64,000 nucleotides of DNA from Bradyrhizobium zhanjiangense (lineage in GTDB: Bacteria; Pseudomonadota; Alphaproteobacteria; Rhizobiales; Xanthobacteraceae), in contig NZ_CP022221.1 in NCBI RefSeq assembly GCF_004114935.1, forward strand, positions 1,447,001 through 1,511,000, given 5' to 3'. Shown one piece after another: positions 27,874-41,885 of the stretch. The translations under genes and the position numbers were made by a program. The notes beneath the pieces were generated by a model that saw only the letters and a list, made by a program, of their open reading frames with translations, did not search any database and was not told the origin of the DNA. Numbering within the stretch: the first letter of the stretch is position 1; the number at the start of each line of letters is the position of its first letter.

Positions 27874-28665
27874 TTACCGTCCAAGCCGCCAGAACGCCGT
27901 CTGCAGCGGGAGCTGATGCTTGATCATCGTGACGCCGTCGACGACCTTCAGGCCGCGGCTCGCACAGGCTTCCATGAATTCGGTGCGGCGGGCGGCGATG
28001 ATGTCGAATACCGCGCAATCCCCCGGCAGATTGGACGGATCCATCGGCAGCGCGTCGCTCGCGTGCAGGCCGAGCGATGTGGCGTTGACGCAGAGGCCGA
28101 CGTCGTCGAAGCGCTCCTCGAGGCTGATATCGAGATCGGGGAATTGCCCGCGCAGCTTTGCTGCGAGCAACTCGACCGGAGCGGGCACCTCGTTGAGGAT
28201 GCGCAGGCGCTTCAAGCCCGCTGCGGCGAGTGCGTGGCAGATCGCGCGGCCGGCGCCGCCCGCGCCGATCACGACAGTGCGGCGCTCGGGATCGAACATG
28301 TTGGCCTCGCGTGCGGCGTTCAGAAAACCGCCGCCATCAAAGGACTCCCCGACCAGCTTTCCGTCCGCTTCGATCCGGATCGTGTTGACCACACCCTCGA
28401 ATGTCGCGGCAGGTCCCACATGGTCGCAGAGTTCGAACGCCGCCGGCTTGTGCGGCATGGTCAGGTTGAAGCCGGCGGTGCTCGGCGATTTCGCCAGCGT
28501 GCGGATTGTCCTGGCGAGATCGTCCGGGTGCACATCCATCGGCACCATGTGCCAGTCGAGGCCCCGCTCCTCGAAATAAGGCGTGTAGTATCTGGGCGCA
28601 CCGACATGGCCGGCGGGATGGGCGAAGATGAAGACGACGCGCGAGGCGCCGGTCGGAAGCTTCAT
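27874..28665 (-). CDS. shikimate dehydrogenase-like (AroE paralogue)
   Basis: 263 residues with the two-domain AroE layout. The catalytic pair is kept: Lys73 in NLTMPHK and Asp110 in GESFDGGG; the dinucleotide site is VVIGAGGAGRAIC at 131-143. However, the N-terminal loop that in AroE reads HSLSPxxHN and binds the shikimate carboxylate here reads HVGAPRYYTP, so both serines are missing. It is the last gene of an ABC importer operon (4 bases after the permease stop). This points to a catabolic dehydrogenase for a cyclic polyol acid imported by the transporter, rather than aromatic amino-acid synthesis. Confidence 0.85.
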   Translation of the reverse strand: MKLPTGASRVVFIFAHPAGHVGAPRYYTPYFEERGLDWHMVPMDVHPDDLARTIRTLAKSPSTAGFNLTMPHKPAAFELCDHVGPAATFEGVVNTIRIEADGKLVGESFDGGGFLNAAREANMFDPERRTVVIGAGGAGRAICHALAAAGLKRLRILNEVPAPVELLAAKLRGQFPDLDISLEERFDDVGLCVNATSLGLHASDALPMDPSNLPGDCAVFDIIAARRTEFMEACASRGLKVVDGVTMIKHQLPLQTAFWRLGR

Positions 28666-28669
28666 GGCA

Positions 28670-29497
28670 TCATCCCTTGACCGCGCCGGCGGTCAGCCCG
28701 GAGACGAGATAACGGCGCACCGCGAGCGAGAAGATCAGCACCGGCGCCATCACCAGCGAGCCGCCGGCGGCGATCTTGCCCCATTCCCAGCCCTCGTAGT
28801 TCATGAAGTTGACGACGGCGACCGGCGCGGTGCGTGCATTGGTCCGGGTGAGGATCAGGGCGAAGAAGAAATCGTTCCAGGCGTAGAGGAAGCAGAGGAT
28901 CGCGGTCGCGGCGATGCCGGGCGTCACCATCGGCAGCACGATTTTTGTGAACACCGTGCGCGTCCGCGCGCCGTCGACGAGGGCGGCTTCCTCCAGCGAA
29001 ACCGGTATGGTGTCGAAGAACGGCTGCATCATCCAGATCACCAGGGGCAGGTTGAAGCTGGTGTAGACCAGCACCAGGCCGGTGACGGTGTCGAGCAGCC
29101 CGATCCAGCGATAGAACAGGAAGAAGGGAATGGTGAAGGCGATCGGCGGCGCCATGCGCGTCACCAGGATCGCAAAGGAGAGCGCATGCTTGCCGCGCCC
29201 GGCCCAGCGCGACAGCGCGTAGGCCGCAGGCACGCCGGACAGCAGTGCGAGCGCGGTCGAGAGCGAGGCGCTCAAGAGGCTGTTGACGAAGGAGGCCGAG
29301 AACGCGCTGTGCCAGAGCGAGACGTAGTTTTCCAGCGTCGGCGTGAAGATCAGCGGTGGCGGGAATTGCAGGATCTGGTCGTTGGACTTGAAGCTCATCT
29401 GCAGCAGCCACAGAAACGGCGAGAGCACGACGAGCAGCGTCATGGTGATCGCGACCAGCCGCCCAGGCGTCGCGCGGCGTCCGGAATGGTGGCTCAT
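28670..29497 (-). CDS. carbohydrate-type ABC transporter permease (MalG-like)
   Basis: 275 residues with six predicted membrane helices and the coupling motif EEAALVDGARTRTVFTKIVLPMVTPG (EAA loop) that contacts the ATPase. MalG/UgpE-type sequence. Its ATG overlaps the stop of the upstream permease by four bases (ATGA), so the two are translationally coupled. No ATP-binding subunit is encoded in the operon; a shared MsmK/UgpC-type ATPase from elsewhere would be needed. Confidence 0.92.
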   Translation of the reverse strand: MSHHSGRRATPGRLVAITMTLLVVLSPFLWLLQMSFKSNDQILQFPPPLIFTPTLENYVSLWHSAFSASFVNSLLSASLSTALALLSGVPAAYALSRWAGRGKHALSFAILVTRMAPPIAFTIPFFLFYRWIGLLDTVTGLVLVYTSFNLPLVIWMMQPFFDTIPVSLEEAALVDGARTRTVFTKIVLPMVTPGIAATAILCFLYAWNDFFFALILTRTNARTAPVAVVNFMNYEGWEWGKIAAGGSLVMAPVLIFSLAVRRYLVSGLTAGAVKG

Positions 29498-30390
29498 GCC
29501 ATCGCCTCCCGCCGGCGCCCCATCCAGACCAGGGCAAGGCTGATGCCGGCGACGAGCAGCAGCATCACGACCGTGACCGCGCTGGAATAGCCGATCTCGT
29601 TGGTGTCGAAGGCAAGGAGATACGCATAGTAGTTCGTGACTTCCGTGACCGTGCCCGGACCGCCGCTGGTCAGCAGGAAGATCAACGGAAACGCCTTCAC
29701 GCTGTCGATCAGGCGGAACATGCCGGAGATGACGAGGATCGGCGTGATGAAGGGCAGGGTGACGTACCAGAAGATCTGAAGCTTGCTGGCGCCGTCGACC
29801 AGGGCGGCCTCCGAATATTCGTCGGGGATGGTCTGGAGCGCCGCCAGCACCATCAGGAAGGTGAAGGGCAACCATTCCCAGGTGTCGGCGATGATGATGG
29901 CGGTCAGCGCGAAATCGACGCTGGAGGTCAGCGCAGGCATGGTGAAATTGAGGAGCTGCGCGGCGTAATAAAGCGGGCTGATGTCGGGCGTGTAGATCAG
30001 CTTCCAGATCACCGCGACGACGATCGGCGGCAGCACCATCGGGATCAGGAAGAAGGTGCGGGCGAACTCGACGAAGCGCGACGGCACGTTGAGGAGCAGC
30101 GCGAGCAGCATGCCGAGCAGGACCTGGAACAGCACACCCCAGCACGACAGTTTTGCCTGCACCCAGAGTGAATTGACGAAGCGGGGATCGCCGGGCAGCA
30201 GGCCGTAATTGCGCAGCGGCACGCTGAAATCGGTCGCCGAGCCCGGCGCCGTCAACTGGAACGGCGTCAGGCTGGTCACGACGAGATAGATCGCCGGAAG
30301 CACGGCGACCGCAAACAGCACGATCAGGCTCGGCGTGAGCGCGCAGGCGATGAAGCTGCGGCGCTCCGCGTCAATTCCACTCTCGCTCAA
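29494..30390 (-). CDS. carbohydrate-type ABC transporter permease (MalF-like)
   Basis: 298 residues when started at the TTG at 30390, which overlaps the stop of the binding-protein gene as TTGA. The frame stays open far upstream, but that part is polar and is a shadow of the binding-protein gene. It begins MSESGIDAERRSFIACALTP, followed by the first helix, with the EAA loop YSEAALVDGASKLQIFWYVTLP. It forms the transport channel with the MalG-like partner. Confidence 0.9.
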   Translation of the reverse strand: MSESGIDAERRSFIACALTPSLIVLFAVAVLPAIYLVVTSLTPFQLTAPGSATDFSVPLRNYGLLPGDPRFVNSLWVQAKLSCWGVLFQVLLGMLLALLLNVPSRFVEFARTFFLIPMVLPPIVVAVIWKLIYTPDISPLYYAAQLLNFTMPALTSSVDFALTAIIIADTWEWLPFTFLMVLAALQTIPDEYSEAALVDGASKLQIFWYVTLPFITPILVISGMFRLIDSVKAFPLIFLLTSGGPGTVTEVTNYYAYLLAFDTNEIGYSSAVTVVMLLLVAGISLALVWMGRRREAMA

Positions 30391-31739
30391 AGCTGCGTCC
30401 CGGCACGGCGGAGCGCGGCGATCGCCTGGTCCTGCGCGGCGTTCATCGCGTCCTTCGCGGGCAGCTGGCCGGTTGCGACCTGCTCGAACGCCTTGTTGAG
30501 CACGTCGCCGACGATCGGGAACTCCTTCACGGTACGATAGGCCATGTAGTTCTCGCCCTTGGCCGGCAGCTCCAGCACTTCCAGATAGAGCGCGCCGAGA
30601 TCCTGGCCGTTGACGGTGTTGAGCTTGCGATAAGCTTCGCTGGTGATGATGGAGCGCCGGCAGACCGAGGAATGGCCGTGCTCCTTGACAAGCCGCATCG
30701 AGATGTCGGGGGAGAGCGCCCATTTGATGAATTCCCACGCCGCCTTCTTGTTCTTGGCGTTCTTGGGAATGCCGAGCCCCTGGCTGTTGGAGGCGGGGTG
30801 GTCATGCACGGGTCCCGCGGGCATCCGCACCACGCGCGCTGTCTCCTTCACCTTGCTCTCCTCGGACAGCAGGATCGGCGTCACCCAGGCGCTGGAATGG
30901 ATGAAGATGTTGGCGCGTCCCGTGAGCACCGACTGCCGCGCCTGGTCTTCGGTGTAGGTCAGCACGCCCTTCGGCGCGCTCTTCAGGAGGTTCGCATAGA
31001 ATTCGATGCCCTGGATGGTCTCGGGCGTGTTCAACGCCGGCATGATGTCGGAGGGCGGCTTGCGGAAGATGTTGCCGCCGAAGCCCTGGATGTAGGGCGG
31101 CAGATTCCAGTGATGCAGCTGGAACGAGGTGATGCCGCTGACGCCGTCGGTGCCGTTGATTTCGGCGCAGACCTGCTGGAGCTCGGCGAACGTCTTCGGG
31201 ACCTTCAGCCCCTTCTTCTCCATCAGATCCATGCGCGACAGCCCCATCAGCATCGCGCCGCCTTCCCAGGAATAACCGTAAGTCGCGCCCTTGGCGTCGC
31301 GGTAGGGCACCTGCGCGCCTTCGACGAAGTCCTTGGGATTCCATTCGGCCGGGGTCAGATTGGCATCGCCGGTGAACTCGTCGAGATTGGCCAGCAATCC
31401 CGCCGCGACCCAGCGCGCGGCCAGGATGAAGGTGACGTTGACGAAATCATAGGCCGAGCCGCCGGAGGACAGTTCGAGATTGGCCTGTTGATTGTAGACC
31501 GGGAAGGCCGAGAGCTGGAGATCGACCTTCATCCCGGTTCTCTCCTCGAACTCGGGGATGTATTTCTGCAGCAGCGTGAAGAAGCGGTGCTGGAACGAGG
31601 CGCCGTGCAGCGTGACGCCGGCAAACGGTTTCGTCTGCGCGATCAGCGGCGCGGGAAATGCCGTAAGCGCCGCGGTCGCGGCGCTGGCCTGCAAGAGTTT
31701 ACGGCGGGTGAGCGAACTTCCGCGCGATGCGTTCTTCAT
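30387..31739 (-). CDS. extracellular solute-binding protein, sugar ABC type
   Basis: 450 residues. The start at 31739 is chosen because GGAGG lies five bases before it; 31742 is the alternative. The N-terminus carries a twin-arginine signal (LTRRKLLQASAATAAL...AQ), so it is likely exported folded by Tat. The mature part is a family 1 solute-binding protein (UgpB/MalE size) with GWx and PSDIMPALNTPE regions. It should deliver the substrate to the two permeases downstream. The ligand cannot be read from the sequence; the neighbours suggest a sugar, polyol or cyclitol acid, perhaps released from a sulfate ester. Confidence 0.9.
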   Translation of the reverse strand: MKNASRGSSLTRRKLLQASAATAALTAFPAPLIAQTKPFAGVTLHGASFQHRFFTLLQKYIPEFEERTGMKVDLQLSAFPVYNQQANLELSSGGSAYDFVNVTFILAARWVAAGLLANLDEFTGDANLTPAEWNPKDFVEGAQVPYRDAKGATYGYSWEGGAMLMGLSRMDLMEKKGLKVPKTFAELQQVCAEINGTDGVSGITSFQLHHWNLPPYIQGFGGNIFRKPPSDIMPALNTPETIQGIEFYANLLKSAPKGVLTYTEDQARQSVLTGRANIFIHSSAWVTPILLSEESKVKETARVVRMPAGPVHDHPASNSQGLGIPKNAKNKKAAWEFIKWALSPDISMRLVKEHGHSSVCRRSIITSEAYRKLNTVNGQDLGALYLEVLELPAKGENYMAYRTVKEFPIVGDVLNKAFEQVATGQLPAKDAMNAAQDQAIAALRRAGTQL

Positions 31740-31768
31740 CATGTCCTCCCAATTATTGTTTGCCGGTT

Positions 31769-32533
31769 TCAACGCGCCCGTCTGGTGCGGGCGTTCTCGT
31801 CCTCGGCATCCTTCTTTCGCTGGCGCGACAGGGCCGAGACGATGTTCTGTTCGGTGAGATCCATGAGCTTGTGCATGGCCTGGCGCGCGCCGTCCGGATT
31901 GCGCGCCCAGATCTCGTCAAGCACCGCGCGATGATAGGGCAGGCTTTTCCGCGGTGCGCCCGGATTCGTCGTCGACAGGTTGAACGACATCCGCAAGGCT
32001 GCCGCGACCGTCGCGCCGAAGGCGATCAGAAAGTCGTTGCCCGTGGCGATCAGGATGCCGCGGTGAAACTGCAAGTCGGGCTCGGCATAGGCGAGCCGGT
32101 CCATGCCGGCAGCGTCCATGCCGCGATAAGCGCGTTCGATCCGGGCAAAATCCTCATCCGTGCCGCGCATCGCGCAGATCGCGCAGGCCTCGGGCTCGAT
32201 GATGCGGCGGACCTCCATGATCTGCTTGGCGAACTCCTGCGTCGGCAGCGCCGACAGCGTCCAGTTCAGCAGCTCCTCGTCGAGCATGTTCCAGTCGAAG
32301 CGCGCGCGGACATGCGTGCCGGCTTTCTGTTTCGAGGCGATCAATCCCTTCGCCTTCAACAGCGATAGCGATTCGCGGATCGAGGCGCGGCTGACGCGGA
32401 AGCGCGAGGCCAGCTCGACTTCGCGCGGCAAGATCGTGCCCTCGCGCCACACCCCGGTCAGGATCAGTCGCGCCACCTCGCGGGCCACCTGGGCGCTCGC
32501 CTGCGGATTATCGCTGCTGTCGGTCTTGGCCAC
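31769..32533 (-). CDS. GntR/FadR-type transcriptional regulator
   Basis: 254 residues: an N-terminal winged helix (EVARLILTGVWREGTILPREVELASRFRVSRASIRESLSLL at about 20-60) and a C-terminal all-helical FCD domain (about 90-230) with metal-binding residues typical of FadR-subfamily sensors of organic acids. It is the first gene of the ABC operon, 29 bases before the binding-protein start, and faces a sulfatase gene across a region with palindromic TGTC-N-GACA sites. It is very likely a repressor released by the transported compound or its product. Confidence 0.92.
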   Translation of the reverse strand: MAKTDSSDNPQASAQVAREVARLILTGVWREGTILPREVELASRFRVSRASIRESLSLLKAKGLIASKQKAGTHVRARFDWNMLDEELLNWTLSALPTQEFAKQIMEVRRIIEPEACAICAMRGTDEDFARIERAYRGMDAAGMDRLAYAEPDLQFHRGILIATGNDFLIAFGATVAAALRMSFNLSTTNPGAPRKSLPYHRAVLDEIWARNPDGARQAMHKLMDLTEQNIVSALSRQRKKDAEDENARTRRAR

Positions 32534-32556
32534 GGTGAACCCGGTTCCGTGAAGTC

Positions 32557-32667
32557 AAATGTCTGATTTATTGCAGATGCTGACGACGCGGCGGAAGAAT
32601 TCCGGCCGTCCATATGCAAGATAATCTCATGGCGGCAGGTTTGACAAGAATTATTATGTCAGACATA
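32557..32667. promoter_or_regulatory. GntR-type operator sites between the regulator and the sulfatase
   Basis: A perfect 13-bp palindrome TATGTC-A-GACATA lies at 32655-32667, 39 bases before the sulfatase start. A second site sharing ATGTCTGA lies at 32559-32566 (AAATGTCTGATTT), 24 bases before the regulator start. One site near each divergent start fits joint repression by the GntR protein. Confidence 0.7.
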
Positions 32668-32705
32668 TCTCCTCCCGGATCAATGCCGCGCAGGACAAAA
32701 CCATC

Positions 32706-34133
32706 GTGACAAAGCCCCACATCGTCCTGGTCATGACCGATCAGCAACGCTTCGACACGATCGCGGCGACAGGCCATCCCTACATGAAGACGCCGAATCT
32801 CGATCGGCTGGTGCGTGAGGGCGTCTATTTCGACAATTGCTTCATCAACGCGCCGAGCTGCGTTCCCTCGCGCGCGGCGCTGTTCTCCGGCCTCTATCCG
32901 CACGCCTCTGGCGTGCTGAAGAACGGGCAGCACTGGCAGAAGACGTGGGTCACCAATCTGGCGGAGGCTGGCTATCACTGCGTCAATGTCGGCAAGATGC
33001 ACACGATCCCCTACGATGCGAAGGCCGGCTTCCACGAGCGTTTCGTCGTCGAGAACAAGGATCGCTTCTTCGAGGGCCGTTGGTTCGCCGACGAACTCGA
33101 CAAGGCCTTTGCCGCCCACAAGCTGACAAAGCCGTCGCGCGCCGGCTACCGCAGCCTGCCGGACTATGGCGACCGCATGGGCGCTTTCACCTGGGAGATG
33201 CCGAAATCGCTGCATCCGGATATCTTCGTCGCGGAGACCGCGATGTGGTGGCTCGAGACCCGACCCAAGCCCGAGGCGCTGTTCATGCAGATCGGCCTGC
33301 CCGGACCGCACCCGCCCTATGATCCGCTGCCGGACTATCTGGAACATTACCTCGCGCGCAACGACCTTCCGGTGCCGCAGCCGACCGAGGCCGAGATCGA
33401 GGGGCTGCCGGCCTATCTGAAGGAGAAGCGCCGCCACGATACCGAAGTCGATCATGACGCGGTGTCATGGAAGCTCGCGCCGACGCACGACCAGATGCGG
33501 CGCCTGCGCGCGCATTATTATGCCAACGTCACCATGATCGACGAGCAGATCGGCCGTCTCCTGCAAACGCTGGAAGACAGGGGCTATCTCGACAATTGCG
33601 TCGTCATCTTCATGTCGGACCACGGCGACAATCTCGGCGAGCACGGCCTCAGTCAGAAATGGTCGATGTACGAGCCCGTCACCCGCATCCCGCTGCTGGT
33701 CTGGTCACCGGGACGGTTCACCGGCGGGCGCCGCATTGCCGGGAAGTGCCAGCTGTTCGATCTCGCCCCGACCATTCTGGATCTCGCCGGCGCACAGCAT
33801 CCGAAGCCGTTCCAGGCCCGCAGCCTGCTTCCAGCCCTGAAGGGCGAAAAATGGGCCGGCCGTGGCTTCGTGTTCAGCGAGCAGGCCGGCGACGTCGCCA
33901 TGACCGGCGCAAGGCTGATCACCATGGTGCGTGACGACAGGTGGAAGGTCGTGTTCATTCACGGCGCCGAGGACGGGCAGCTGTTCGATCTCGCGACCGA
34001 TCCGCTCGAACGGCACAATCTCTTCGGCATGCCGGAGCACGCCGGAATCATCAGCCGTCTGAAGGACGCCTTCATCGACTGGCGGCAGAACAGCCTGCTG
34101 GAGACGATGGATCTGAACGCGGCCGCGCGCTGA
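32706..34133 (+). CDS. type I sulfatase (alkaline-phosphatase superfamily)
   Basis: 475 residues from a GTG start. Asp12 in VMTDQQRFDT begins the metal site, and Cys52 in SCVPSRAALFSG lies in the C-x-P-S-R signature, where Cys becomes formylglycine. FMSDHGDNLGEHGLSQKW supplies later metal ligands. The enzyme hydrolyses a sulfate ester. There is no signal peptide, so it acts in the cytosol on an imported substrate; choline sulfatase-like or aryl/sugar sulfatase are both possible. It faces the GntR/ABC/AroE-like operon across shared operators. No formylglycine-generating enzyme gene is in the window. Confidence 0.92.
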   Translation: MTKPHIVLVMTDQQRFDTIAATGHPYMKTPNLDRLVREGVYFDNCFINAPSCVPSRAALFSGLYPHASGVLKNGQHWQKTWVTNLAEAGYHCVNVGKMHTIPYDAKAGFHERFVVENKDRFFEGRWFADELDKAFAAHKLTKPSRAGYRSLPDYGDRMGAFTWEMPKSLHPDIFVAETAMWWLETRPKPEALFMQIGLPGPHPPYDPLPDYLEHYLARNDLPVPQPTEAEIEGLPAYLKEKRRHDTEVDHDAVSWKLAPTHDQMRRLRAHYYANVTMIDEQIGRLLQTLEDRGYLDNCVVIFMSDHGDNLGEHGLSQKWSMYEPVTRIPLLVWSPGRFTGGRRIAGKCQLFDLAPTILDLAGAQHPKPFQARSLLPALKGEKWAGRGFVFSEQAGDVAMTGARLITMVRDDRWKVVFIHGAEDGQLFDLATDPLERHNLFGMPEHAGIISRLKDAFIDWRQNSLLETMDLNAAAR

Positions 34134-34136
34134 TGC

Positions 34137-34733
34137 CTATGAATCGTCGGCGTCACGGCCGTGCCATCTCAACGCCGGCGCCGAGACGTCGGGCAGGCCC
34201 AGCAGGTTGATCGCGCGGCAGGCGATCTGGTCGACGATGTCGGCCACCGACTGCGGCTTCAGGTAGAAGGCGGGCAGCGGTGGCGCAATGATTGCGCCGA
34301 TCTCGGTCGCTTGGAGCATCGCGCGGAGATGTCCGAGATGCAGCGGGCTTTCTCGGACCAGGAGCACCAGACGCCGCCGCTCCTTGAGCTGCACGTCGGC
34401 CGCACGCACGAGGAGATTGTCTAGATGTCCCCAGGCGATGGCCGACAGCGTGCGGATCGAGCACGGCGCCACGATCATGCCGCTGACCGGAAACGAGCCG
34501 CTGGCGATGCTGGCGCCGATGTCGGCAGGATCATGGTCGCGGAAGGCGAGGGCGCGCAGCCGGGGCAGCGCGCCGGCACCGGCTTCCTCGGTGAGCGTGC
34601 GCTCGGCCGCCGGTAAGATTACGAGATGCACCGCGCAAAGCGGATTCTCCGCCAGCCGCTCGACGATGCGCATGCCGATGGCCGCGCCCGAGGCGCCGCT
34701 GACGCCGACGACCACGCCATGCCGCGCGCTCAT
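34137..34733 (-). CDS. ubiX: flavin prenyltransferase UbiX
   Basis: 198 residues with the FMN-binding start VVVGVSGASGAAIGMRIVE, the SGSFPVSGMIVAPCSIRTLSAIA motif and KERRRLVLLVRESPLHLGHL, all diagnostic of UbiX. It joins dimethylallyl phosphate to FMN, making the prenylated cofactor that UbiD needs. Its ATG overlaps the ubiD stop by four bases (ATGA), so cofactor enzyme and decarboxylase are coupled. The neighbours ubiD, ubiT, ubiU and ubiV place it in ubiquinone synthesis. Confidence 0.95.
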   Translation of the reverse strand: MSARHGVVVGVSGASGAAIGMRIVERLAENPLCAVHLVILPAAERTLTEEAGAGALPRLRALAFRDHDPADIGASIASGSFPVSGMIVAPCSIRTLSAIAWGHLDNLLVRAADVQLKERRRLVLLVRESPLHLGHLRAMLQATEIGAIIAPPLPAFYLKPQSVADIVDQIACRAINLLGLPDVSAPALRWHGRDADDS

Positions 34734-36262
34734 GCGGTCTCGCGCTGTTGAGGTCCAGCCATTGCGCCGAGGCCGAGCGCCGGCCACATCCTGTCGACCC
34801 TGGCGATCACGGCTGGATCCATCATCAGGGGCTCGCCCCAGGCCCGCTCCGTCTCGGGCGGAATCTTGGTGGTGGCATCGATTCCGAGCTTGCCGCCGAG
34901 GCCGGATTTCGGCGAGGCGAAGTCGAGATAGTCGATCGGCGTATCCGAGAGCGTGACGAGGTCGCGCGAGCTGTCGCTGCGGGTCGCGACCGCCCACATC
35001 ACGGCGCGCCAGTCGCGGATGTCGATATCGTCGTCGACCACGATCAACAGCTTGGTGTAGCTGAACTGCGGCAGCATCGACCACAAGCCGAGCATCAGCC
35101 GTCGCGCTTGGCCGGGATAGCGCTTCCTGATGGAAGCGATCGCGACCCGGTAGGAGCAGGCCTCGGGCGGCAGCCAGCAGTCGGTCACCTCGGGGAATTG
35201 CTGCCGGATCAGCGGCACGAACAGCCGGTTCAATGCTTCGCCGATCCGGGACGGCTCGTCCGGCGGGCGGCCGGTGAAGGTCGAGAGATAGATCGGCTGT
35301 CGGCGCGACGTGATGGCGGTGACCCGAAGCACGGGAAAGGCCTCGACCGAATTGTAGTAGCCGGTGTGATCGCCATAGGGGCCCTCGGCGGCCGTCTCGG
35401 TTGCCGAGACGAGGCCCTCGATGACGATCTCGGCCGCGGAGGGGACCGCGAGAGGAATCGTCAGGCACGGCGTCAGCTCGGGCCGCTCGCCGCGCAGGAG
35501 ACCTGCGAAGCGCAGCTCGGACATCGTCTCCGGCAGCGGCAGCACGGCGGCGAGGATCGTCGCGGGGTCGGCTCCAATGACGATCGCGACCGGCATGTCG
35601 CGCCCGCGTGCCTTCCATTGCTGGTGATGCCGGGCGCCGCCGCGATGAGCGAGCCAGCGGATGATCGAGCGGTCGCGACCGAGGATCTGCATGCGGTAGA
35701 CGCCGACATTCTCTTCCTGGTCCGCGACGGGCGACTCCGGCGGAGCGGTGATGACCAGCGGCCAGGTGATCAAGGGTGCGGGCTCGCCCGGCCAGCAGAT
35801 CTGCGCCGGCAGTTTTGTTAGATCGATGTCCTCGCCCATCGCCACGCGATCCTGCACCGCCGCCGCAGGGCGCGATCGTGGCCGCGTGGCAAGCGCGGCG
35901 CGCGCCAGCGGCAGCTTGCGCCAGGCATCCCGGACGCCGTGCGGAGGACGCGGTGCGCGCAACTCGGCCAGCAAGACGCCGAGCTCTTCCAGCCGGTCCG
36001 GCGTGATGCCCATGCCCCACGCGGTTCGCTCCACCGTGCCGAACAGATTGGTCAGCAGCGGCATCTCGGAGGGAAGGCCGTCGGCCCTGACTGGGCGTTC
36101 GAACAATAGTGCAGGACCGTGTTCGCCGATCACGCGCCGGTGGATCTCGGTGATCTCATGGACCACGGAAACCGGTTCGCGAATGCGTCGCAGCTGCCCC
36201 TTGCCTTCGAGGAAGTGCAGGAAGTCGGATAATTCGCCGAAGCGCGGAACGTCACGTTGCAA
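34730..36262 (-). CDS. ubiD: 4-hydroxy-3-polyprenylbenzoate decarboxylase UbiD
   Basis: 510 residues from a TTG start with AGGAG nine bases upstream. It follows the E. coli UbiD sequence end to end, for example GPALLFE, CWPGEPAPLITW, RWLAHRGGA, EGPYGDHTGYYN, TPIDYLDFASP. The E-x-P-Y-G-D-H segment binds prenyl-FMN and metal. It removes the ring carboxylate in ubiquinone synthesis. Most alphaproteobacteria have one ubiD elsewhere, so this copy, next to ubiX and opposite ubiTUV, is likely the one used under low oxygen. Confidence 0.94.
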   Translation of the reverse strand: MQRDVPRFGELSDFLHFLEGKGQLRRIREPVSVVHEITEIHRRVIGEHGPALLFERPVRADGLPSEMPLLTNLFGTVERTAWGMGITPDRLEELGVLLAELRAPRPPHGVRDAWRKLPLARAALATRPRSRPAAAVQDRVAMGEDIDLTKLPAQICWPGEPAPLITWPLVITAPPESPVADQEENVGVYRMQILGRDRSIIRWLAHRGGARHHQQWKARGRDMPVAIVIGADPATILAAVLPLPETMSELRFAGLLRGERPELTPCLTIPLAVPSAAEIVIEGLVSATETAAEGPYGDHTGYYNSVEAFPVLRVTAITSRRQPIYLSTFTGRPPDEPSRIGEALNRLFVPLIRQQFPEVTDCWLPPEACSYRVAIASIRKRYPGQARRLMLGLWSMLPQFSYTKLLIVVDDDIDIRDWRAVMWAVATRSDSSRDLVTLSDTPIDYLDFASPKSGLGGKLGIDATTKIPPETERAWGEPLMMDPAVIARVDRMWPALGLGAMAGPQQRETA

Positions 36263-36314
36263 GCGAACGGTCTCCTGAAAAAGCAGAAGCTAGCCGGCGA
36301 GATTTCGATCTTCA

Positions 36315-36328
36315 TTGTTCCCGCTCAA
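36315..36328. promoter_or_regulatory. FixK/FNR-like box between ubiD and ubiT
   Basis: TTGT-TCCCGC-TCAA matches the 14-bp FixK2 pattern TTG(A/C)-N6-(T/G)CAA at all but one position. It is centred 59 bases upstream of the ubiD start and 40 before the ubiT start. A second short palindrome, TTGCGCGCAA, follows at 36335-36344. Activation at low oxygen of both arms would fit their role. Confidence 0.6.
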
Positions 36329-36361
36329 ATACATTTGCGCGCAATCGGCTCAGATGACGGA

Positions 36362-36895
36362 ATGAGTCATTCGTCCGTCGCGTCCGGTTCGTTGCCGACA
36401 ATCCCGCCGCTGCTCGCTCTGGCAATACGTCCCTTGCCGCTGCTGCCGCTGCAATTCGCGTTTCGTGGCTTCCTGTCGCGGATATTGAGGCGCAATCCCG
36501 GCCTGCTCGACCGGCTCGGACCACATCGCCGCGCACGGTTCGGGATCAAGCCGGTCGACCTGCCGTTCGCCTTCATCGTCGAGGCCGCGCCGCCGCTTCT
36601 GTCGGTGGTGCGCGAGCTGCCGCAAGGCCTGGAAGCCTATGTCTCCGCTTCGCTCGCAAACCTGCTGGCCCTGGTCGAGGGCAGGGTCGATGGCGACGCG
36701 CTGATGTTTTCGCGTCAGCTCGGAATCGAAGGCGACATGGAGGCTGTGCTGGCCTTGCGCAATGCGATCGACGATGCGCGGCTCGATCTCGCCGCGGAGC
36801 TGGCTTCCCTGTTCGGTCCGTTGGGCGAGCCGGTGAGGCGTTCCTTCGAGGCCGCGCGGGACAGGCTGACCGGCCCGCCGCAGGAGCAGAGGTGA
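36362..36895 (+). CDS. ubiT: ubiquinone biosynthesis accessory factor UbiT (SCP2 domain)
   Basis: 177 residues from the ATG at 36362. The body is an SCP2-like lipid-binding domain (LPFAFIVEAAPPLLSVVRELPQGLEAYVSASLANLLALVEGRVDGDALMFSR in sequence order, about 65-120). This is the anaerobic counterpart of UbiJ, which holds quinone precursors for the hydroxylation and methylation enzymes. Its TGA overlaps the ubiU ATG (TGATG). With ubiU and ubiV directly behind it, the identification is safe. Confidence 0.92.
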   Translation: MSHSSVASGSLPTIPPLLALAIRPLPLLPLQFAFRGFLSRILRRNPGLLDRLGPHRRARFGIKPVDLPFAFIVEAAPPLLSVVRELPQGLEAYVSASLANLLALVEGRVDGDALMFSRQLGIEGDMEAVLALRNAIDDARLDLAAELASLFGPLGEPVRRSFEAARDRLTGPPQEQR

Positions 36896-37872
36896 TGGAG
36901 CTGATCTGTCCCGCCGGCACGCCGGCCGCGCTGCGCAGCGCCATCGATGCCGGGGCTGACGCCGTCTATTGTGGCTTCAACGACGAGACCAATGCGCGCA
37001 ATTTTCCGGGGCTGAACTTCAGCCGCGACGAGCTGCGTAAGGGAATCGCGTTCGCCCATGGACGCGGCGCGCGCATCCTGGTCGCCATCAATACCTTTCC
37101 GCGGGCGTCGTCCGTGACGCTCTGGCAGCGCGCCGTGGACGATGCCGTCGATGCCAGAGCCGACGCGCTGATCGTCGCCGATATCGGGCTCATGGATTAC
37201 GTCGCCAAACGTCATCCGGGCCAGCGCCTTCATGTTTCGGTGCAGGCTGCCGCCGCAAATCCCGATGCCATCGCGTTCTACGTCGAGATGTTCGGGGCGC
37301 GCCGCGTCGTGTTGCCACGCGTGCTCAGCGTTGCGGAGATCGCCGAAATCACCCGCGAGACGGCGTGCGAGACCGAAGTGTTCGTGTTCGGCGGCCTTTG
37401 CGTGATGGCCGAGGGGCGCTGCTCGCTGTCGTCCTATGCGACCGGCAAATCGCCGAACATGCAGGGCGTCTGCTCGCCGGCGAGCCATGTGGCCTATGAG
37501 GAGACCGCGCAGGGAACGACGTCCCGGCTTGGTGGCTTCACCATCAACCGCTTCGCCCCGCAGGAGGCCGCGGGCTATCCGACCCTCTGCAAGGGGCGGT
37601 TTTCCACCGCGCATGGCGACGGCTACGTCGTCGAGGACCCTGTCAGCCTCGATGCCACGACGCTGCTCGGGGGATTGCGAAGCGCCGGCGTTGCCGCCCT
37701 GAAGATCGAGGGGCGTCAGCGCGGACGGGCCTATATCGAGAGCGTGGTCCGTCATTTCCGTCGCGCACTCGATACAATCGAGCAGGGGCGCGAAGCGGAC
37801 ATCGTGAGCCTGCGGCCCTTCACTGAAGGCCAGGCCTCTACGCTCGGCGCCTATCGCAAGACATGGCGATGA
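36895..37872 (+). CDS. ubiU: oxygen-independent ubiquinone hydroxylase component UbiU
   Basis: 325 residues, peptidase U32 family. From the ATG at 36895 (overlapping the ubiT stop) the four iron-sulfur cysteines fall at 169, 176, 193 and 232 (FGGLC, EGRCSLS, GVCSPAS, LCKGRF), the positions I recall for E. coli UbiU. UbiU and UbiV form a heterodimer with one [4Fe-4S] cluster each, and hydroxylate ubiquinone precursors without O2, taking oxygen from prephenate. There is no sign of true peptidase function. Confidence 0.95.
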   Translation: MELICPAGTPAALRSAIDAGADAVYCGFNDETNARNFPGLNFSRDELRKGIAFAHGRGARILVAINTFPRASSVTLWQRAVDDAVDARADALIVADIGLMDYVAKRHPGQRLHVSVQAAAANPDAIAFYVEMFGARRVVLPRVLSVAEIAEITRETACETEVFVFGGLCVMAEGRCSLSSYATGKSPNMQGVCSPASHVAYEETAQGTTSRLGGFTINRFAPQEAAGYPTLCKGRFSTAHGDGYVVEDPVSLDATTLLGGLRSAGVAALKIEGRQRGRAYIESVVRHFRRALDTIEQGREADIVSLRPFTEGQASTLGAYRKTWR

Positions 37873-37901
37873 TTAATGGCGATGATTGATGGCGATGATT
37901 G
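37863..37901. repeat. three 13-bp tandem repeats at the ubiU-ubiV junction
   Basis: ATGGCGATGATT followed by A or G occurs three times in a row (37863-37875, 37876-37888, 37889-37901). The first copy contains the ubiU stop codon. The copies offer several in-frame and out-of-frame ATGs ahead of ubiV. Confidence 0.9.
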
Positions 37902-37939
37902 CAACCGATGGCGGCCGGCCATCAATGAGAGAAGCCCCG

Positions 37940-38836
37940 ATGCAGCTGAGGCTCGGCCCCGTCCTCTACAATTGGGCGCCGGAGCGCTGGCGCGATTTCT
38001 ACTTTCGGATTGCCGACGAGGCGCCGGTCGATGTCGTGTCCGTAGGCGAGGTCGTCTGCTCGAAACGCTCGCCGTTCTTCGCGGAGCACCTGCCTGACGT
38101 GATCGAACGGCTCCAGCGTGCCGGCAAGCAGGTCCTGCTGGGTTCGCTGATCCTGGTGTCGCTGCGGCGCGAACGGCGTCAGACCGAGGAGCTCTGTGCG
38201 GCTGACAGCGCATTGGTCGAGGTGAACGACCTGACCTGCCTCCGCCCGATCAAGGGCCGGCCGCATGCGATCGGTCCCTACGTCAACATCTACAACGAGA
38301 CCAGCGCGGCCTTTCACGTCCGGCAAGGCGCAGCGCGCATCTGCCTGCCGCCGGAATTGCCGATCTCGTCAGCGGCGGTGATTGCCGCAGCGGTGCCCCA
38401 GGCCGTGATCGAGATTTTTGCCTTCGGCCGGGTGCCGCTGGCGATTTCCGCCCGTTGTTACCATGCGCGGCTTCACAAGCTGTCCAAGGACAATTGCCGC
38501 TTCGTCTGCGAAAAGGACCCGGACGGGCTCGCGTTGAAGACGCTGGACCAGCAGGAGTTCCTCACGATCAACGGCGTCCAGACCCTGTCGCATGCCTGCA
38601 CCAATCTCGTTGGAGACGTTGCTGCATTGCGCGAGGCTGGGATCGGCTCGCTGCGCCTATCGCCGCAGGATTGCGACATGGTGGGTGTTGCCAGAACCTT
38701 TCGCGATGTGCTCGACGGACGCAACTCAGCCGAAAGCGCAAGCCGCCGCTTGTCCGATCTTTACCCGGGCGTCGCCTTTGCCAACGGCTTTTTTCGCGGC
38801 AAGCCCGGCTTTTCCTTCGCGTGCTCCTCGCAATGA
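37940..38836 (+). CDS. ubiV: oxygen-independent ubiquinone hydroxylase component UbiV
   Basis: 298 residues starting MQLRLGPVLYNWAPE, which aligns with the E. coli start MKYSLGPVLYYW; upstream ATGs at 37925 and in the tandem repeat are therefore not preferred. The [4Fe-4S] ligands are Cys40, Cys173, Cys186 and Cys190 (GEVVCSKR, SARCYHAR, DNCRFVC); their 13- and 4-residue spacing equals that of E. coli UbiV. It pairs with UbiU, 67 bases upstream. The end, GFFRGKPGF, is also family-like. Confidence 0.95.
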   Translation: MQLRLGPVLYNWAPERWRDFYFRIADEAPVDVVSVGEVVCSKRSPFFAEHLPDVIERLQRAGKQVLLGSLILVSLRRERRQTEELCAADSALVEVNDLTCLRPIKGRPHAIGPYVNIYNETSAAFHVRQGAARICLPPELPISSAAVIAAAVPQAVIEIFAFGRVPLAISARCYHARLHKLSKDNCRFVCEKDPDGLALKTLDQQEFLTINGVQTLSHACTNLVGDVAALREAGIGSLRLSPQDCDMVGVARTFRDVLDGRNSAESASRRLSDLYPGVAFANGFFRGKPGFSFACSSQ

Positions 38837-40514: not shown

Positions 40515-41738
40515 TCACCGCGCCGCGCCTTCGGTGAAGGCGGTCTCGATCACCTCGCCAAAAGGCTGCCAGGAACGGCCGTCGAACTGGACGAGCCGCA
40601 TCTGCTTGATCGGCAGATAGTTGCTGGGCGAGGTATTCATCCTGATGTTGGGCAGCGCGACGGAGGGGTGATAGCCCTTAAGCGAAGCCGCCTGACGCAT
40701 GATGTTGTCACGCGAGAAGTCGTCGCCGCATTGCTTCAGCACCTGCGCCAGCGCTTCGGCCGCGGCGTAACCGTAGAGCGCGGCGCTGCTGTTGGTGCTT
40801 TCGGCCTGATGGTATTTGTCCATGAAGGCGAACCAGTCCTTCATGGCGGCATCGTCCTTCCATGCGGGATCGCTCGGATCCTTCAGAAAGGCCGCGGAGA
40901 TCACGCCGGCGGAGTTCTCGAGGCCCGCGGGCGCCATCGCATTGGCGATCGAGGCGGAGGCATCGTTCACGATGAAGACCGGATGCCAATTGAGTGAGGC
41001 CGCCAGCTTGATCACCTTGGATGCCGTCGACGGCACGCCGAGAAAGACGAAGATGTCGGCGCCCGCGCGCTTGAGGATCGAGACGTGTCCGTCGAGATGT
41101 TCGTCGGCGATGTCGAAGGCGATGTCGACGAGGACATGACGGTTGAGGTCGCCAAGGCCTTCCTCGATGCCCTTGTAGAGCATGCGGCCGAACTGGTCGT
41201 TCTGCCAGAGCACCACGATCTTCTTCCGGGGATAATAGGCCTGGATGTAGTTGGCGTAGATGCGCCCCTCCGACCGGAACGACGGCTGCCAGCCCATGGT
41301 CCAGGGAAACGCGCTTGGCTGGCTCAGCTCCTCGTCGCCGGAGGCGACGAACAGCTGCGGGATCTTCTTCTCGTTCAGATACCAGCGCGTGGCGAGATTG
41401 CCGGGCGTGCCGAATGACCCGAACATCAGGTGCACGTCCTCGGTCTCGACCAGATTGCGCGTCAGCTCCAGCGCAGTCGCCGGATCGGAATTGTCGTCGC
41501 GCGTGATGAAGCGGACCTTGCGGCCGTTGATGCCGCCACGCGCGTTGATCATGTCGAAATAGGCGGCCTCCGCTTGGCCGATGGCGCCGAACTCCGAGAG
41601 CGGTCCCGAATACGGCATGACATTGCCGATGCGGATTTCCTTGTCGGTCGTGGCTTGCTCCGCGTGTTGCAGGGACATCGCCCCAAGCGAAGCCAAAGCG
41701 ACGATCAAAACGAACAGCAGCCTGCCGGTGACGCGCAT
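40515..41738 (-). CDS. ABC transporter substrate-binding protein, branched-chain amino-acid type
   Basis: 407 residues starting at 41738 with a signal peptide (MRVTGRLLFVLIVALASLGAMS). The mature part is a type I periplasmic binding protein (Peripla_BP_6, LivJ-like) with IRIGNVMPYSGPLSEFGAIGQAEAAYFDMINARGGINGRKV (in sequence order) and HVSILKRAGADIFVFLG. Such proteins bind hydrophobic amino acids, aromatic acids or other ligands. It is an orphan: no LivH/M/G/F genes are near. The gene lies between two direct copies of a ~230-bp repeat, as if carried as a cassette. Confidence 0.9.
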   Translation of the reverse strand: MRVTGRLLFVLIVALASLGAMSLQHAEQATTDKEIRIGNVMPYSGPLSEFGAIGQAEAAYFDMINARGGINGRKVRFITRDDNSDPATALELTRNLVETEDVHLMFGSFGTPGNLATRWYLNEKKIPQLFVASGDEELSQPSAFPWTMGWQPSFRSEGRIYANYIQAYYPRKKIVVLWQNDQFGRMLYKGIEEGLGDLNRHVLVDIAFDIADEHLDGHVSILKRAGADIFVFLGVPSTASKVIKLAASLNWHPVFIVNDASASIANAMAPAGLENSAGVISAAFLKDPSDPAWKDDAAMKDWFAFMDKYHQAESTNSSAALYGYAAAEALAQVLKQCGDDFSRDNIMRQAASLKGYHPSVALPNIRMNTSPSNYLPIKQMRLVQFDGRSWQPFGEVIETAFTEGAAR

Positions 41739-41885
41739 GCTCGACACCTTGATGTTGGCCCCCGAAAAGGTCGGCTCAATCCCCACCAAGGCTGGTTGAT
41801 GTAGGTCAAGCGTTTGGCGATCGTATGGCTTGATCGCCGGGTTTGATGTTGCAGAGCATTGAGCCAAAACGGCAGGTGTGTTGAC

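Follow-up and report, generated by a model that had tools for sequence, protein, structure and literature searches.

A ubiXD-ubiTUV island in Bradyrhizobium zhanjiangense as a probable module for ubiquinone synthesis without oxygen, and the co-occurrence of UbiD with UbiU in its order

In Escherichia coli, ubiD and ubiX lie outside the ubiTUV locus. The E. coli UbiD-UbiX pair is common to the aerobic and anaerobic ubiquinone routes, and ubiTUV is under FNR-type activation (PMC6747719, PMC10470549). In Hyphomicrobium denitrificans, ubiXDTUV (Hden_0564-0568) form a single-copy set co-regulated with denitrification, with sHdrR and SoxR studied as regulators and nitric oxide reductase genes clustered, and its authors already suspect another decarboxylase in air (PMC12423496). 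In the phototroph Rhodobacter capsulatus, ubiD-X and ubiU-V deletion strains grow in air and not anaerobically, whereas ubiN is required in air, where a decarboxylative flavin monooxygenase (FMO) operates (PMC10626278). In Rhodobacter sphaeroides, a site bound by FnrL and CrpK, TTGATgtagGTCAA, is assigned to ubiD (RSP_0467-0468) and to RSP_0466-0464, both marked as activated (PMC2908626, PMC4263372); gene numbering and layout suggest that RSP_0466-0464 are a divergent ubiTUV. Here we analyse a 64,000-nucleotide stretch of the Bradyrhizobium zhanjiangense genome (GCF_004114935.1, contig NZ_CP022221.1, positions 1,447,001 to 1,511,000; hereafter the window), in which the same five genes form an island at 34137-38836. 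Its proteins and cysteine ligands are those of E. coli, and its gene set, single ubiD and ubiX and link to denitrification are those of H. denitrificans; the box between its arms departs from the R. sphaeroides site, which is an FNR palindrome.

The minus strand holds ubiX (34137-34733, 198 residues), predicted to encode a flavin prenyltransferase, and ubiD (34730-36262, 510 residues, TTG start), predicted to encode 3-polyprenyl-4-hydroxybenzoate decarboxylase. Divergently, the plus strand holds ubiT (36362-36895, 177 residues, start codon uncertain), for an SCP2-domain accessory factor, followed by ubiU (36895-37872, 325 residues) and ubiV (37940-38836, 298 residues), for two subunits of a [4Fe-4S] hydroxylase. 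UbiT, UbiU and UbiV exceed the equivalog cut-offs of their NCBIfam models (NF047962, 71.6 against 46.9 bits; NF047963, 508 against 440; NF047965, 370 against 275). UbiX exceeds the subfamily cut-off of NF004685 (219 against 188 bits), passes that of TIGR00421 and matches flavin prenyltransferases in PDB; the query used in searches began at 34736, one residue longer than the open reading frame from 34733. UbiD carries all three UbiD domains (PF01977, PF20695, PF20696), exceeds the TIGR00148 subfamily cut-off (455 against 245 bits) and aligns over residues 4-497 with E. coli UbiD (5m1c), its best solved match; it is filed as UbiD through the subfamily model, this near full-length match and its context, and not as an E. 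coli-type equivalog. UbiU retains Cys169, Cys176, Cys193 and Cys232, numbered as the E. coli ligands of the motif CX6CX16CX38C, which Pelosi et al. describe as strictly conserved (PMC6747719), and UbiV retains Cys40, Cys173, Cys186 and Cys190 in CXnCX12CX3C spacing. The reading frames of ubiD and ubiX overlap by ATGA (ubiX start at 34733), those of ubiT and ubiU by TGATG (36893-36897). A preliminary description of this DNA had reported the five genes, both overlaps, the eight cysteines in family spacing and a TTGT-N6-TCAA element between the arms, all of which are confirmed, and had read them as an oxygen-independent ubiquinone module, an interpretation that proved mostly right and that the equivalog scores and kept cysteines support.

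The same description had proposed a dedicated ubiD-ubiX pair and a search of the genome for further copies. The search of the window's genome, a single contig of 9.34 Mb, gave one UbiD-family protein and one UbiX and no further copy of either, and the pair appears dedicated in a stronger sense. Across a sample of 150 genomes from the order, UbiD orthologs occur in 22, all with UbiU, and in none of the 113 without it; across 195 genomes from the genus, all 35 orthologs are in UbiU carriers, against none in the 154 genomes without UbiU (Fisher p 7e-17 and 8e-33, respectively, kinship ignored). The two samples overlap and together make 345 genome entries, 267 of them without UbiU. Orthologs were taken at an identity of at least 56% in the order (G062 cut by a contig end) and at least 69% in the genus, where some are partial, and UbiD-family matches of ~40% identity or less were counted as paralogs; UbiU matches at 30-35% identity in G011, G059 and G128 (order) and G272 (genus) were dropped as other U32 proteins. 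By coordinates, ubiD and ubiU are adjacent in 35/35 genus and 16/22 order genomes, the remaining order genomes having them ~265 kb apart (three) or on different contigs (three). UbiX accompanies UbiD in 21 of the 22 order genomes, and all 12 further order genomes with UbiX carry a remote UbiD-family protein. The inclusion of ubiD-ubiX in the island, which had been singled out as its notable feature, is instead a known and widespread arrangement, in print for H. denitrificans (PMC12423496) and present as ubiD next to ubiTUV in 64 of the 80 closest named UbiU loci listed; among the other 16, contig ends lie near ubiT in some. Two sampled proteins, UbiD of G235 (contig C20) and UbiU of G241 (contig C25), each gave two separate partial matches, which may reflect gene disruption or misassembly.

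In the order and genus genomes that lack UbiU, where ubiquinone would be expected as the quinone, no UbiD ortholog was found, and something else must decarboxylate in air. A salicylate-hydroxylase-type FMO of the window's genome (G000:C1:3993586-3994782), conserved regardless of UbiD, is by family and near-universality the candidate UbiN: its relatives at E 1e-30 or better occur in 145/150 order genomes, and three of the five without a match are 1.3-1.4 Mb in size. Together with the restriction of UbiD to UbiU carriers, this near-universal gene points to the anaerobic route as the most likely role of UbiD-UbiX, with the UbiN-type enzyme serving in air. The window's genome also encodes two UbiH-family hydroxylases above cut-off. 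COQ4 was considered as the aerobic decarboxylase and rejected, with no COQ4 match in the genome; a literature search found no paper linking COQ4, oxidative decarboxylation and UbiD.

With high probability, the five genes constitute an accessory module for ubiquinone synthesis without oxygen, controlled by oxygen through a Crp/Fnr activator, with a UbiN-like route in air. The genes, their single copy, the co-occurrence, the conserved box and the near-universal UbiN-like gene are observed; the chemistry, the aerobic/anaerobic split and the activation are modelled on the relatives named above. As oxygen falls, an activator of the Crp/Fnr type, whether FNR, FixK or a related protein, would bind the intergenic box and switch on both arms. 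UbiX would supply prenylated flavin mononucleotide, with which UbiD would decarboxylate polyprenyl-4-hydroxybenzoate non-oxidatively, and UbiU-UbiV, aided by UbiT, would then add the ring hydroxyls without O2. In air UbiD would be unneeded: the UbiN-like FMO would couple carboxyl removal to C1 hydroxylation in one O2-dependent step, and the two UbiH-family monooxygenases would perform the remaining hydroxylations.

Several observations weigh against this assignment, and some of them favour a general decarboxylase that, as in E. coli (PMC6747719), serves aerobic and anaerobic ubiquinone synthesis alike and merely adjoins ubiTUV. The ubiD and ubiX of the island are the only ones found in the genome, and UbiD is common across the class, where many UbiD genomes have no second match in a scan that scored two candidates per genome, considered here for the rows listed and taken without a UbiU count; the strict tie of UbiD to UbiU therefore holds for this order and genus only. 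Furthermore, order genomes G028, G107, G138 and G102 have their UbiX match outside the island, the UbiN-like protein scores below curated cut-offs (TIGR03219, 169 against 446; NF006021, 324 against 459) and passes no NCBIfam cut-off among its 25 best matches listed, and in R. capsulatus the expression and function of ubiD are reported to extend to aerobic conditions (PMC10626278). The general role is nevertheless unlikely, given the lack of a UbiD ortholog in every sampled genome without UbiU, the near-universal UbiN-like gene and the normal growth in air of the R. capsulatus ubiD-X deletion (PMC10626278). Below the E. coli-type equivalog cut-off of NF008175 (594 against 788 bits), the window's UbiD might alternatively act with UbiX on some other aromatic acid as a catabolic decarboxylase, its position being coincidental; the genus has many remote UbiD-family proteins, most of them at 27-37% identity. 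This is hardly credible beside the 578 bits scored against E. coli UbiD, compared with at most 177 for other solved UbiD proteins, the adjacency to ubiTUV in most named loci and the strict co-occurrence in two samples. A role of UbiD-UbiX in the anaerobic route remains the preferred reading.

The box through which this route would be switched, TTGTTCCCGCTCAA (36315-36328, strand not assigned), is the sole match to TTGTTCCN4CAA in the window, where 0.06 are expected. The looser TTG-N8-CAA is not enriched (4 found, 7.9 expected), so a bare match is no evidence and the case rests on conservation. TTGTTC-N5-CAA stands at almost the same intergenic position in 31/31 genus loci read, out of 35 genomes with both genes (G172, G265, G235 and G241 set aside). 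Among other genera, TTG-N8-CAA, mostly as TTGA-N6-TCAA, occurs in 8 of 10 distinct regions, with a 1-8% chance per region by shuffling and one of the near-identical L016-L018 used; of the 80 closest named loci, 63 have a divergent region that could be measured, and 60 of these regions also hold it, although many of these loci are closely related and the regions are not independent cases. The arms are thus separated by a TTG-N8-CAA box at a conserved place, as would be expected of an FNR/FixK regulon member. A chance match, or a site for another class of regulator, would agree with the lack of enrichment, with the genus left half TTGT in place of the TTGA of FNR palindromes and with the missing box in 2/10 other-genus and 3/63 named regions, and the invariant TTGTTC of the genus may point to a particular Crp/Fnr member. 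Such an origin is very unlikely in view of the conserved position, of ubiD being bound by FnrL in both R. sphaeroides and R. capsulatus (PMC2908626, PMC4263372, PMC4634722) and of candidate FNR sites at 1362/1566 ubiTUV triplets (Chobert et al. 2024, PMC11707229). On the ubiD side, a -10-like TAGCTT (36292-36287, minus strand) would imply a transcript start near 36280, with the box centre (36321.5) at -41.5 relative to it, a class-II spacing, and a ribosome-binding-like AGGAG (36272-36276, minus strand) lies 9 nucleotides ahead of the ubiD start codon. Two points count against activation of both arms: the box centre is just 40.5 bases ahead of the ubiT start codon, requiring an almost leaderless transcript, and R. 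capsulatus ubiD, bound by FnrL, is listed without differential expression in that group of papers (PMC2908626, PMC4263372, PMC4634722). Crp/Fnr-type activation through the box is, by analogy, the probable mode; of the FixK/FNR control first proposed, the conserved FNR/FixK-type box stands, and a preference for FixK over FNR or another Crp/Fnr protein is not supported.

The preliminary description had placed the module in denitrification or in nodules. Within the genus sample, NirK scores above cut-off in 34/35 island genomes against 84/160 others (Fisher 8e-8), supporting the former; nodules are not supported. As a point on the other side, 79 of the 118 NirK-carrying genus genomes lack UbiU, so denitrifying growth does not generally need the module. 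Phototrophy (reaction centre, PF00124) was considered as a correlate of the more distant UbiU type and dropped (5/13 against 33/137, p 0.32).

Comparison of genus loci reveals that the five genes stay together while their flanks vary. The ubiV-side neighbours are common to the window and L081 and L082 (~90-95% identity), and no compared flanking gene is common to it and L083 and L084 (~85%) or L085 and L086 (~70%). A block at 27874-34133, including a GntR-type regulator and a sulfatase, separates ubiX from genes that in L081 and L082 are nearer to it, suggesting an insertion next to the island. The other neighbouring genes in the window encode a member of the enolase superfamily and a substrate-binding protein. 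A second FNR/FixK-like palindrome, TTGATGTAGGTCAA, lies at 41796-41809, just ahead of a possible start of a substrate-binding protein gene (40515-41786, minus strand, gene caller). Within the island, three tandem copies of the 13-base unit ATGGCGATGATTG (37863-37901) run from the last bases of ubiU into the gap before ubiV, where a change in copy number would alter the UbiU end or the ubiU-ubiV spacing. An in-frame TTG at 37886 lies upstream of the ubiV start at 37940. Rfam models gave no match at gathering threshold between 30000 and 42000.

The new lead of this analysis lies outside the window, in UbiU genomes without a UbiD ortholog (15/37 in the order, 6/41 in the genus). UbiU residue 169 is Gly instead of the ligand Cys in 17 of the 20 readable genomes among these 21 (G122, where residue 169 is not covered, left out), with Cys169 kept in G116, G010 and G302, and is Cys in every one of the 50 genomes read among the 55 with UbiD (G014, G241, G172, G265 and G235 set aside). 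Sorted by residue, 17/17 Gly169 genomes lack a UbiD ortholog and 50/53 Cys169 genomes have UbiD. Listed completeness is 95% or more for 14 of the 17 Gly169 genomes, and three of the 17, G030, G097 and G277, carry a remote UbiD-family protein (31-34% identity) that might take the place of UbiD. A UbiN-like match is present in all 13 order genomes of the Gly169 type, the four UbiV cysteines are intact in the 16 aligned, and TTG-N8-CAA precedes ubiT in 7/18 loci. Database relatives, picked by similarity to two Gly169 proteins, have Gly in 120/120 of one group and 116/116 aligned of the other (236/236). Most members of each group have gained a cysteine, at 130 (119/120) or at 211 (105/116), making it possible that the lost ligand is replaced. 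In structure models of both types, built to see whether Cys130 or Cys211 could take over from Cys169, the predicted local distance difference test score is near 40 in the cluster region, which makes them too uncertain there, and a Foldseek search with UbiU returned a U32 structure as top match and nothing on ligands. The best tree divides the Gly169 forms into two groups, implying two changes, and 0/200 bootstrap trees have one change, whereas the approximately unbiased test does not reject a single Gly169 clade (p 0.24); Cys169 may have been lost once or twice.

A conserved neighbour was sought as the missing decarboxylase in 15 UbiD-less loci, leaving aside ubiT, ubiU, ubiV and reverse-strand frames over them, and dismissed, no gene cluster recurring in more than 4. 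One genus locus, L075 of G302, combines ubiTUV, Cys169 and a TTGTTCC box with no UbiD match, and has a 563-residue gene before ubiT. Four proteins of 537-551 residues (P0151, P0155, P0162, P0198) are listed with U32 and SCP2 domains together, an apparent UbiU-UbiT fusion. Nagatani et al. (2023) left anaerobic decarboxylation open in UbiD-less Rhodomicrobium and Rhodovulum, and our search of titles and abstract openings (UbiU-Rhodomicrobium, ubiD-Rhodovulum) found no other paper on UbiD-less decarboxylation. Conceivably, the open iron site of a Gly169 [4Fe-4S] cluster binds the substrate carboxylate, and UbiU-UbiV combines decarboxylation with C1 hydroxylation in a single O2-free step, replacing UbiD; we regard this as unlikely. 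UbiD-less genomes could otherwise use a different anaerobic decarboxylase, in some perhaps the remote UbiD, or could rely on UbiUV only in settings with enough trace O2 for UbiN to function.

To Bradyrhizobium and the order around it, the island extends what was known from single species, in that UbiD-UbiX there most likely belongs to the anaerobic route. The counts, with no UbiD ortholog in sampled genomes lacking UbiU and a UbiN-like gene in nearly all order genomes, raise a suspicion voiced in two papers to a pattern seen across the order. Lineages that have UbiTUV with a three-cysteine UbiU and no UbiD offer a concrete candidate for the decarboxylation left open by Nagatani et al. (2023), and one that, hinging on a single residue, is testable.

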